Shown here one piece after another: positions 14,030 through 45,689 of a stretch of 64,000 nt of DNA. A program made the translations under genes and the position numbers. The notes under the pieces were generated by a model. The model saw only the letters and a program-made list of their open reading frames with translations, searched no databases and was not told the DNA's origin. The first letter of the stretch is position 1; the number at the start of each line of letters is the position of its first letter. Location of the stretch: positions 1-64,000 of the forward strand of contig JARLFZ010000007.1 of assembly GCA_031296305.1 (NCBI GenBank), written 5' to 3'. This DNA is from Occallatibacter sp. Lineage in GTDB: Bacteria; Acidobacteriota; Terriglobia; Terriglobales; Acidobacteriaceae.

Positions 14030-14419
14030 ATGTCTGTTCTGATACCCCGAATTCGCACGATTAATGTCCGGCTCTCCGAAGAGGAATATCTGGAGTTGGA
14101 ACGGTTCTGTGTAGCCAGCGGCGCTCGCAGCATTTCGGATCTTGTGCGCAACACCATCAACAGCCTGGTCACAAGCAGGAATCAAGACAACTCGCTGGCA
14201 TCGAGCTTCATCAAGTATTCCGCGCATGTGAATGATTTGGAACTGAGGGTCAAGGAACTTGCCGCAGAGCTTGAATCGTTCCGGACCGGCGTCCAGCCTC
14301 ATCATGCAAATGCGCCCGATGAGACCAACGCGACTGCCGAAACGCGTCCCATGGATGCAACTGAAACCTCGTCGGGCGCGGACCTATTGGAGCAGCCGTC
14401 GTCGGAGACCGCTTCATGA
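14030..14419 (+). CDS. Ribbon-helix-helix-like protein with C-terminal coiled coil
   Basis: 'RIRTINVRLSEEEYLELERFCVASGARSISDLVRNTINSLV' resembles an RHH/CopG fold; followed by a coiled-coil-like segment. Confidence 0.6.
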   Translation: MSVLIPRIRTINVRLSEEEYLELERFCVASGARSISDLVRNTINSLVTSRNQDNSLASSFIKYSAHVNDLELRVKELAAELESFRTGVQPHHANAPDETNATAETRPMDATETSSGADLLEQPSSETAS

Positions 14420-40579: not shown

Positions 40580-41523
40580 GGGATGCTTTTGTCCGTGTGC
40601 TTACCGAGCTGGCTCCAAAGCACCCTGAGCTCATGCTGCTCACCGGGGATCTCGGCTTTGGTGTTCTGGACAATTTCTCTGCTCAGTTCCCACGTCAATT
40701 CTTGAACGTCGGAGTCGCGGAGCAGAACATGTCCGGACTCGCCGCCGGTCTTGCGCTCGAAGGCCATTCCGTTTTCACTTACTCGATCGGTAATTTTCCG
40801 ACCCTCCGCTGCCTCGAACAGATTCGCAATGACATCTGTTATCACGGCGCAAATGTCACCATTGTCTGCGTGGGTGGGGGAATGAGTTATGGGCCCGTCG
40901 GCATGTCGCATCACGCCACCGAAGATCTGGCTATCCTCCGCCCGCTGCCCGCAATGGAAGTGTTCGCTCCTGGTGATCTTTGGGAGGCGAGCGAAGCATC
41001 GCGATATCTGGCGTCGCGGCCCCACGGGCCGGCTTACTTGCGGCTCGATAAATCTGCGGCAAAGCCGACGGTGCGCCCTGGCGAAGTATTCCGGCCCGGC
41101 TCCATTCGCACTGTCCGCGAAGGTTCGGATGTAACCCTGGCCGCGACCGGTGGAATTCTGGGGGAGGCGCTTCTGGCCGCCGACCAGTTGGCAGAACATG
41201 GTGTTCGTTGCCGCGTGCTTAGTGTCCATACTGTCAAGCCCCTCGACACGGCCACACTCTCCATTGCCGCAGCAGAAACTCAGGGCATTGTAAGCATCGA
41301 GGAACATGCCGTGGACGGTGGGCTGGGCGGCGCCATTGCAGAGGCGCTTATGGAAGCTGGTATCTCTCCTGGCTTCTTTGTTCGCATCGGGCTCCGCAAC
41401 ACGTTCTCTTCCGTTGTCGGGTCGCAAGCGTATCTTCGCACCGTCTACTCGCTCGATGCTGCGTCCATCGTTCGAACCGTGTCGCTAAAGCTGGGCATTG
41501 CCGAGGAGGCTATCTCCCGATGA
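40576..41523 (+). CDS. Transketolase, C-terminal (pyrimidine-binding) subunit
   Basis: 'LLTGDLGFG', 'FLNVGVAEQNMSGLAAGLALEGHSVFTYSIGNF', 'AYLRLDKSAAKP', 'SVHTVKPLDTATL'. Confidence 0.93.
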   Translation: MRDAFVRVLTELAPKHPELMLLTGDLGFGVLDNFSAQFPRQFLNVGVAEQNMSGLAAGLALEGHSVFTYSIGNFPTLRCLEQIRNDICYHGANVTIVCVGGGMSYGPVGMSHHATEDLAILRPLPAMEVFAPGDLWEASEASRYLASRPHGPAYLRLDKSAAKPTVRPGEVFRPGSIRTVREGSDVTLAATGGILGEALLAADQLAEHGVRCRVLSVHTVKPLDTATLSIAAAETQGIVSIEEHAVDGGLGGAIAEALMEAGISPGFFVRIGLRNTFSSVVGSQAYLRTVYSLDAASIVRTVSLKLGIAEEAISR

Positions 41524-42248
41524 TTAAACGTACCTTCGATATTCTTGCCGCATCTTTTGGATTACTTCTTTTCTCGCCGCTCTTAGTAGCGGTGATGGTG
41601 GGGATTTGGTTGCAGGATCGCCAATCGCCGTTTTACATCGCTCCCCGCGTCGCTCGCGGCGGCGGCGAATTCCGCATGATCAAGTTCCGTTCCATGGTGG
41701 CGAATGCTGACAAAATCGGCGGCTCATCGACGGCCGCCAGTGACCGCCGCATCACTCCCATCGGCCACTTCGTCCGTGCATACAAACTGGACGAGTTGAT
41801 CCAGCTTTGGAACGTTCTCAAGGGTGACATGAGCCTGGTCGGACCGCGGCCGCAGGTGCTGAGCGATGCCGCACTCTACACCAGCGCCGAGAGGCGCATG
41901 CTTTCAGTCCGCCCCGGCATCACCGACCTGGCTTCAATCGTCTTCTCCGACGAAGGAGAAATCCTGAAAGGGAGCGCCGATCCCGATCTTCTCTACAACC
42001 AGATCATTCGTCCCTGGAAAAGCCGGCTTGCCCTGGCTTATATCGATCATCGCAGCCTTTCGATCGATCTTTGGCTGATCGTTTTAACTTTGCTCGTGGT
42101 GATCTCCAGAGACGCTTCCCTGGGGCGATTGGGAAAGTTGTTGCGAGCCTGGAAACTCGATCCCCTCGTGATCCGCATGGCGAAACGGCAGGCGCCGCTT
42201 CTGGCCTATCCGCCGCCCGGCGCGGAGTTTGTAGTTCAGCATCTGTAA
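41520..42248 (+). CDS. Initiating sugar-phosphate transferase (bacterial sugar transferase, PglC/WcaJ catalytic-domain type)
   Basis: 'KRTFDILAASFGLLLFSPLLVAVMVGIWLQDRQSPFYIAPRVARGGGEFRMIKFRSMV', 'DELIQLWNVLKGDMSLVGPRPQ', 'SVRPGITDLASI'. Confidence 0.93.
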   Translation: MIKRTFDILAASFGLLLFSPLLVAVMVGIWLQDRQSPFYIAPRVARGGGEFRMIKFRSMVANADKIGGSSTAASDRRITPIGHFVRAYKLDELIQLWNVLKGDMSLVGPRPQVLSDAALYTSAERRMLSVRPGITDLASIVFSDEGEILKGSADPDLLYNQIIRPWKSRLALAYIDHRSLSIDLWLIVLTLLVVISRDASLGRLGKLLRAWKLDPLVIRMAKRQAPLLAYPPPGAEFVVQHL

Positions 42249-42277
42249 AGTTGCGGCGTCTGACGCCCATGCGGCTT

Positions 42278-42303
42278 GGCCCAGGCGAATAAAAGCCTGG
42301 GCC
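42278..42303 (+). terminator. Strong hairpin downstream of sugar transferase
   Basis: GGCCCAGGC-gaataaaa-GCCTGGGCC (9-bp perfect stem), followed by ttactgttt. Confidence 0.55.
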
Positions 42304-42462
42304 TTACTGTTTCCGGGCATATCCAACGAGCTGATGCACCCACCGGTGCGCCTGACCGAATCTGGCCACGTCGCCACTGTGAATACTCGGGCAGGGGAAT
42401 GTGCAGAGGCCGACGAGCCAATCGAAACAACATTCGATTCATTGATTCAGTGTGTGTCAAAG

Positions 42463-42490
42463 AACGGCCGGCGCGTTTGCACCGGCCGTT
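42463..42490 (+). terminator. Second strong hairpin with downstream T-rich tract
   Basis: AACGGCCGG-cgcgtttgca-CCGGCCGTT followed by tctgtt. Confidence 0.6.
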
Positions 42491-42570
42491 TCTGTTAGGG
42501 GTGACCACGATCACATCTAGCGGCGAGCCCCAGGTATTTAATCGCCTACAGTCATCAAAATATTGCTCGT

Positions 42571-42744
42571 CGTAGTCTACTTCACTTTGGTCTGACTCTC
42601 AGATTCAGACCCTCCCTAAAAGCTCTCGCGTACGTTTCTGCGTCAACATTTTGCCATCGTGGTCTACTTCATTTTGGTCTGACTCCTGGATTCAGACCTT
42701 CCCAGACAGATCTCGCGCACGTTTCTGCGGTTGCAATTCCATGT
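42571..42744 (+). repeat. 87-bp tandem duplication, each copy with a 23-bp odd-centred palindrome
   Basis: Copy 1 from 42571, copy 2 from 42658; palindromes 42589-42611 (GGTCTGACTCTCAGATTCAGACC) and 42676-42698 (GGTCTGACTCCTGGATTCAGACC). Confidence 0.9.
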
Positions 42745-42846
42745 CCAAGAGCCGGAAAGATCATCGAGCAGCGTTCTCGATGACACCGGGGCACTCGGAA
42801 TGGAAAACCGCAAATCGTTCTGCACCTGAGAAACGGGGAATGAAAC

Positions 42847-43440
42847 ATGCACGAGAGTCCTTGGCAAGTTTTACATGTGATTGCGAATCATGAAAAGAGA
42901 GTGGCGCAGCATCTTTGTGCGCGTTCTTTGGAACATTACCTGCCGCTTTACACGGAGCGGTCAAAATGGACTGACCGGTCCGTCATACTGGATCGCCCGC
43001 TTTTCGCGGGGTATGTGTTTATCCGTTTCGCGCCTCATGCCAAACTCTCCGTCGTCTCCACGCCCGGTGTGATTCGCCTCCTGGGCGATCACGAGAGCGA
43101 TACGGTCAGCGCCGAGGAGATCGACAGAATCCGCAATGGGTTGGCGAGCGGCTGCCTTTTACGACCCCACGCGAATGTGACCCTGGGAACGGCAGTGCGC
43201 GTGCGCAGTGGCCCTTTTATGGGAGTAGAGGGCATCGTGACGGAGTTCCGCCATCGGTGCCGCGTGATCATCGCTCTTTCCTCGGTGAGACAGTGCTTTT
43301 CTCTGGAACTGGATCTTGAGGACATTCAGGTTCTCCGTGAAGCGCATGCAATAAGCGCGTCAGCTTTACCAGGGGTCCTTCAGAATCTTAATTTCATACG
43401 CGCAGACAACTCGATTCCGTGGCGGGTTTCAAGAACTTGA
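42847..43440 (+). CDS. UpxY/RfaH/NusG-like transcription antiterminator
   Basis: 'WQVLHVIANHEKRVAQHL...HYLPLYTERSKWTDRSVILDRPLFAGYVFIRF', 'VISTPGVIRLLG'-like region, KOW-like 'LGTAVRVRSGPFMGVEGIVTEFRHRCRVIIAL'. Confidence 0.9.
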   Translation: MHESPWQVLHVIANHEKRVAQHLCARSLEHYLPLYTERSKWTDRSVILDRPLFAGYVFIRFAPHAKLSVVSTPGVIRLLGDHESDTVSAEEIDRIRNGLASGCLLRPHANVTLGTAVRVRSGPFMGVEGIVTEFRHRCRVIIALSSVRQCFSLELDLEDIQVLREAHAISASALPGVLQNLNFIRADNSIPWRVSRT

Positions 43441-43980
43441 CCACATTCGCTGTCCAGAACCCTCGGAAAGCCACAACCGGGCCGCAGTCTTGAAGTTTTG
43501 GCTCACCGCGCCGTCGCCCGCATTATCTCGCCCATCTGAACTGCTCACTTCGGGATAAGCGCAGGGGACTACAAGAAGAAAGTCGTTCGCCAGGGTCGGC
43601 TTTCGACGAGAGTCCTCTAGCGCCTGGACGGTAACTCGCACTGCGACTTCCTTACCTTTCTTCCGCAGAGCAACGATCATCTGGTTCTCCAGCAGTTGGA
43701 GGCGCTCGGGTACTATCTCTTGTCATCTTCTTAAATCCGGGGAGACTCCTCGACTTGCGGGGCTTCCACTGTGGATTTTCTCGCTGAGAACGGTCGTCAG
43801 AGTGGCGTGCGAAAACTGATATAGTTATCGTGGTTGCGGCGGCATGCAAAGTCGCGTTCAGGTGGGATACCTTTTCAGCAGACATTTCAGCAATAACGTC
43901 TCCGGCGAAGCACTGAAATGTTGATATTAAAGAGGATCACACCTTGAAGCAATCGATTGAATCCACTCCTCGGAGAGGCA

Positions 43981-45132
43981 ATGCAGGCGATCCTGGCGCT
44001 CGAAGACGGGCGCATCTTCCGCGGCCACGGCCATGGGCACCCGGGCGAATGCCAGGGCGAAGTGGTTTTTAATACTTCTCTTACCGGTTACCAGGAAATT
44101 GCCACCGATCCCTCCTATGCCGGGCAGATCGTCGTCCTTACGAATCCCCAAATCGGCAACTATGGCACCAATCGTGCCGACAATGAGGCGTCTCGCCCGT
44201 ACATTGAGGGCCTGATCGTCCGCGAGTTCTCCACCATCAGCTCCAATTGGCGCTCCGAGCAGGTGACCGACGAGTACATGGAGCGCTACTCCGTACCGGT
44301 GCTCGCCGAGATCGACACGCGCGCCCTGGTGCGCCACCTGCGCAACCACGGCGTTATGCGTGGCGTGATTTCGACGACCGAAACCGACCCCGAGGTCCTC
44401 GTCCAAAAGGCCAGAAAAATTCGCAAGATGGACGGCACCGATCTGGCGCGCGTGGTTTCAACTAAGGCCAACTACGAGTTCGACGCCTCCGATCCGCGCA
44501 GCGAGATGGGGCAGTCGTTGCTTGCCGAGGGATTCGTTCACAAAGAGGAGTCTCACCGGAAGAACCTTCATGTAGTAGCTTACGATTTCGGGATTAAGCA
44601 AAACATTCTGCGCATGTTAGTGCGCGAGGAATGTCGCGTCACCGTGGTCCCCGCTGAAACCCCCGCCGACGATGTTCTTGCGCTCAAGCCCGACGGCGTC
44701 TTTCTCTCGAACGGCCCCGGCGACCCGGAACCGGTAGACTACGCGGTGCGCTCCATCCGGCAGATGATGGGCCGCGTGCCGGTGTTTGGAATTTGCCTGG
44801 GGCACCAGCTTTGCGGCCTCGCGCTCGGCGGCCGCACCTACAAGCTCAAATTCGGCCATCACGGCGGCAACCACCCGGTGCGCAACAATGCCACCGGCAA
44901 GGTGGAGATCACGGCGCACAACCACAACTTCGCCGTCGATCCCGACTCCATCAACGCTAATGAAATCGAGCTGACGCACGTTGACCTGAACGACCAAACG
45001 CTCGAAGGCCTGCGCCACAAGACTCTGCCGCTCTTCAGCGTGCAATACCACCCCGAAGCCGCTCCCGGCCCGCACGATTCGCACTACCTGTTCCGCGACT
45101 TCCGCCAAATGATGGAGGAGTGGAAGGGATGA
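43981..45132 (+). CDS. carA: Carbamoyl-phosphate synthase small subunit
   Basis: '[13 protein letters not shown]'-type start, '[33 protein letters not shown]', GATase '[18 protein letters not shown]...HNHNFAVD'. Confidence 0.97.
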
Positions 45133-45689
45133 AGCCTGCGGCGCACGAAATTTTCGGAATAGTAAAGCGGCGGGGCTTTTGGCTCCGCTGTTTTTTGGGA
45201 CTCTGTGCAACCATTGCTTTCCTCGCATCGCCGCTAGCAAGCTGGTCGCAGTTTCTCGGATTTCCATGCAATGGAAATAAGGCCGAATGCGTTGAGAAGT
45301 TCGATCAGTTCTGTAGGACAGCAGAGAACAGAGCACCGAACTTATTTGTTCCTAAGAGGACAAGGATCAGCGGAGTGCTCATAGATTCTTCGGGGGCCGT
45401 CTTTGCTCATCCAGAGAAAGGGTTGACGGTTGAACTCCACGATCTCAAGACTTCAGGCCTGATCGCATCCAGCCAGGTGAGCGAAATGGGAACCTTCGAC
45501 TTTGGCACGGTCGAACCCGGTTCTTACCGGCTGATAGTCGTCCTAATCGATCAGGGCAAAAGGGCCCGTTACCGCGGGTGGCAGCAGCCCGGTAAGCTGG
45601 CATGTCCAGATTCGGATGAATGCACCTTGGCAGCGCTGCTTCGGCCTGGTAGTACCGACAATCCAATCGATTTTTGTCCCCCGGAGTAG
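45120..45689 (+). CDS. Hypothetical secreted protein (189 aa), located between carA and carB
   Basis: Signal-like N-terminus and beta-sandwich-like '[58 protein letters not shown]'. Confidence 0.65.

Follow-up and report, generated by a model that had tools for sequence, protein, structure and literature searches.

A tandem duplication with a compensated 23-bp dyad upstream of a UpxY-like gene in Occallatibacter sp.: control site or chance symmetry?

The spacer upstream of a UpxY-like antiterminator gene in Occallatibacter sp. contains a tandem duplication in which each copy carries a 23-bp dyad, and one base pair of the dyad has changed on both arms between the copies. Does this symmetry mark a control site kept by selection, or was a dyad of little consequence simply duplicated? 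The window is the whole stretch of DNA that was analysed, 64,000 nt in length. The spacer follows a polysaccharide cluster whose last gene encodes a bacterial sugar transferase (41520-42248, + strand), and a terminator-like hairpin lies after the cluster (42278-42303, + strand). A strong inverted repeat at 42463-42490, AACGGCCGGCGC/GCACCGGCCGTT followed by TCTGTT, forms a second terminator-like hairpin after the cluster. The gene downstream of the spacer (42847-43440, + strand) encodes a specialised paralogue of the NusG family whose nearest model is UpxY (Pfam NusG, 6.9e-16; NCBIfam antiterm_UpxY, 1.9e-26). The Pfam NusG domain passes, and the protein scores 93 bits against NCBIfam NF033644 (UpxY), for which the cut-off is 100. 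The LoaP model, which has a cut-off of 125 bits, gives 49.5, and the UpxY model is the top score. Carbamoyl-phosphate synthase genes follow downstream; a 189-aa ORF between carA and carB (45120-45689) has no Pfam match.

A repeat search of the window places two direct copies in the spacer, 85% identical and with a period of 87 bp. Copy 1 spans 42570-42642 and copy 2 spans 42657-42729, both on the + strand. The alignable part is 73 nt of the 87-nt unit, and the final 14 nt of each unit cannot be aligned between the copies. The 23-bp dyad has the form GGTCTGAC-TC(T/C)-N-(A/G)GA-TTCAGACC or, with the variable core written out, GGTCTGACTC(TCA/CTG)GATTCAGACC. It reads GGTCTGACTCTCAGATTCAGACC in copy 1 (42589-42611) and GGTCTGACTCCTGGATTCAGACC in copy 2 (42676-42698), neither dyad being assigned to a strand, and the stretches enclosed by the 7-bp arms read CTCTCAGAT and CTCCTGGAT. 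Ten of the 11 pairs are complementary in each copy and the same C/T pair is broken in both, while pair 11 is altered on both arms, from T-A to C-G. Copy 2 ends approximately 117 bp upstream of the UpxY-like gene. The earlier note, which was made from the sequence without database searches, had described the duplication, the palindrome, the compensated pair and their position in these terms, and its description is borne out. A third, unrelated 23-nt inverted repeat, TCATCGAG-N7-CTCGATGA, with 8-bp arms and no assigned strand, is found at 42761-42783, which is 63 nt upstream of the UpxY-like gene and 85 bp past the second dyad (start to start).

The favoured explanation, which is given about an even chance of being correct, is that a non-coding segment with a chance or minor dyad was duplicated in tandem, recently and in this lineage only. 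The duplicated segment would simply be part of the spacer between the polysaccharide cluster and the UpxY-like gene. Replication slippage or unequal recombination may have produced the second copy, and the copies would then have drifted to 85% identity. The symmetric change at the axis of the dyad could have resulted from one template switch (quasipalindrome correction) or multinucleotide event and not from two selected substitutions. The element would then play no part in regulation, or have a minor structural role at most.

The divergence between the copies supports this explanation. They differ at 11 of the 73 columns, with three differences in the 23 columns of the dyad and eight in the 50 columns outside it (P=0.52). 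The dyad has diverged as fast as its flanks, so the claim of a preserved dyad between degenerating flanks does not hold. The three differences in the dyad are contiguous (TCA to CTG), are all transitions and are centred on the axis. Since the changes are contiguous and symmetric, a single template-switch or multinucleotide event suffices to explain them without selection. Template switching has been proposed, from reconstructed histories of RNA genes, to give rise in a single step to hairpins, to loop changes and to compensatory changes of paired bases (PMC8794818), and therefore the covariation in the dyad is not proof of selection. A second report (PMC8604942) proposes it as a cause of multinucleotide mutations at inverted repeats. 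The dyads resemble quasipalindrome template-switch mutations in having clustered symmetric changes beside the axis of an imperfect inverted repeat; they differ in that two copies cannot give the direction of the change or its intermediate states.

Other observations count against the favoured explanation. The 14 outer arm bases, which make up both 7-bp arms, are identical in the two copies (P=0.08). In a simulation of neutral divergence by independent point mutations, at least 10 of the 11 pairs were kept with P ~0.04, and with a compensated pair the value was ~0.006; both values are post hoc, as the feature was picked for its striking look. The dyad is also rare for its spacer. When the spacer (42304-42846, second copy omitted) was shuffled, the exact dyad class appeared with P ~0.003 and any dyad of 21-29 nt with at most one broken pair with P of 0.01. 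At the scale of the window, no other 23-nt dyad reaches 10 of 11 pairs, and an arithmetic estimate gives approximately 0.5 such dyads in a random 64-kb sequence. Inverted repeats with arms of at least 7 and a gap of at most 9 number 41 in the window and 27-39 in shuffles, which is not a clear enrichment.

Comparison with relatives produced no further example of the dyad or the repeat. Neither a pattern search nor a sequence-plus-structure model found a third copy elsewhere in the genome, the window included, and there is no copy on plasmids. Orthologues of the downstream gene occur in approximately 20 same-genus genomes at 54-73% protein identity; the motif is present in 0 of the 20 leaders available and the direct repeat in none. 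Dyads of this quality number one in those leaders versus 2.3 in shuffles, which is no excess. Applied to the remaining 79 genomes of the genus, the same two methods gave no full match; one genome (G014) has a lone weak match with two mismatches, and the mismatch in the arm destroys the symmetry. A blastn search against 99 relatives found no copy, and the motif is absent from the other 395 of 396 phylum-wide genomes. Conservation upstream of orthologues, which would characterize a conserved cis-regulatory element, is therefore not seen. The earlier note had itself named absence from related genomes as grounds against its proposal, and the palindrome is absent from the orthologue leaders, the genus and the phylum. 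Viral contigs contain eight exact matches to a loose form of the dyad pattern; these fall into two sequence families with unrelated flanks and were taken as chance.

The spacer itself appears to be peculiar to this lineage. DNA similarity between the orthologue leaders and the window ends approximately 20 nt upstream of the start codon, so the leader is not shared. At the carA locus of same-genus relatives, DNA similarity begins only at the carA start (~43951); because it begins at carA itself, the spacer has no homologous counterpart at that locus. The region 41500-43951, with the end of the cluster and the UpxY-like gene, is not common to the relatives' carA locus. Since the region upstream of carA is unshared, the polysaccharide cluster is at a lineage-specific place. 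The absence from relatives is clear, but the nearest genomes available have diverged too far to allow a proper test for recent selection.

A possible but rather unlikely alternative is that the dyads form a tandem pair of operators to which a dimeric regulator of the UpxY-like gene binds, and that selection has kept them in this lineage only. A tandem pair of sites is a usual operator layout. As in the tandem dyad operators of bacterial repressors, two near-identical dyads lie upstream of a regulator gene, within intergenic DNA, their arms are identical in both copies, and the compensated pair is improbable under independent mutation. However, the motif is missing from the orthologue leaders and from the rest of the genome, so there is no regulon, and unlike the known operators these dyads are not conserved. 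The 87-bp spacing corresponds to 8.3 helical turns and is out of phase, which puts the two sites on different faces of the DNA. No consensus promoter was found near the dyads. The protein suggested as an RHH regulator (14030-14419) is not recognised by Pfam or NCBIfam.

It is less probable that the dyads work as hairpins in the 5' leader of the UpxY-like transcript, where the antiterminator itself, in the manner of LoaP, might for example bind them and tune its own operon. The change from T-A to C-G would preserve the RNA stem, and the centroid structure of each copy is a 7-bp stem. However, the fold z-scores (-0.1 to -0.75 across the copies and both strands) are not significant and are on par with shuffles, and in a joint transcript copy 1 prefers to pair with copy 2. 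No orthologue leader conserves the hairpin. The NusG paralogue LoaP recognises a small hairpin of the UNCG type, located upstream of a terminator in the leader of its target operon (PMC12691694). This hairpin, in the dfn/mln RNA of Bacillus velezensis, is similar to the dyads in that a small hairpin is near a NusG-paralogue system. In the window, by contrast, there is no UNCG-type loop and no leader terminator, and it is the regulator gene itself that lies downstream of the site. No intrinsic terminator was called at the dyads, whose stems are followed by CTCCC and TTCCC with no T-run, and 42730-42846 has no terminator-like site. The repeat region has no match in Rfam, and a small RNA or riboswitch was rejected for that reason.

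The operator and leader-hairpin readings are thus possible, and the positive evidence for them is symmetry and location. Adjacency is what links the dyads to the UpxY-like gene. The proposal that selection acts on the dyad symmetry, through an operator or a hairpin, stands in part: the compensated pair is real, but the changes are adjacent, the folding is ordinary and the dyad is not conserved.

Hairpin-bearing direct repeats are typical of REP/MITE-like elements and of tandem small RNA genes. An origin of this repeat as a relic of a mobile or repeated element, or as two small RNA genes in tandem, is nevertheless very improbable, since no more copies occur in this or any relative genome (two in all, where a dispersed repeat has many), no Rfam family matches and the overlapping ORF has no Pfam domain. 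A coding repeat was also considered, as the period equals 29 codons and one of the frames stays open downstream. It is ruled out by a stop in copy 1; the differences between the copies are not mainly synonymous, and the overlapping ORF again has no Pfam match. The least probable proposal is a newly duplicated, lineage-specific recognition site through which the UpxY-like antiterminator would regulate its own gene, the dyad being kept by selection in a clade that does not have the ops-like leader of its relatives.

Under the favoured explanation the repeat itself is an ordinary local duplication, and the case is a reminder that a base pair compensated between no more than two copies can be misleading. 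Should close relatives become available, the repeat would have slight importance as a candidate site. An ops-like leader element conserved before UpxY-type genes of relatives offers a better testable starting point for asking how these antiterminators are recruited. The window shares with the RfaH ops element and the UpxY leader its setting, namely DNA upstream of polysaccharide-linked genes and a NusG paralogue, but the dyads do not have an ops-like pause sequence.

The leader element is 41 nt long and is common to many leaders of UpxY-type genes in other clades of the same genus. It was located in same-genus genomes, outside the window, at loci L088, L095-L099, L101-L110 and L112, near 1485-1525. 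The element consists of an imperfect hairpin, in its typical form CCTCAC-CCAA-GTGAGG, and then ATGGCGAAGCC-N-TGC, and the conserved part that is a candidate for the pause is written CTCACCCAAGTGAGG-ATGGCGAAGCCATGC. The ops pause element of RfaH is GGCGGTAGCNTGC. The sequence GGCGAAGCCNTGC resembles the RfaH ops layout, including a GG ten to eleven bases before the T-G step. The element may be a recruitment or pause site of UpxY-type antiterminators, as far as sequence resemblance and position can suggest. It has no match in Rfam. The window does not contain it, and the best match in the remainder of that genome (E 0.007) is not convincing. The main stem keeps its pairs in 83% of cells, mostly via G-U changes, and its formal covariation does not exceed that of shuffles. 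A model was built from 19 examples, with an E value below 1e-4 taken as strong; about half or more of the 40 genomes sampled from the genus have strong matches to it. By comparison of coordinates, approximately 18 of some 30 strong matches are at most 300 nt upstream of a NusG-family gene. Among the strong matches that lie elsewhere, three that were checked precede polysaccharide genes, encoding Polysacc_synt_2, a glycosyltransferase and Wzz.
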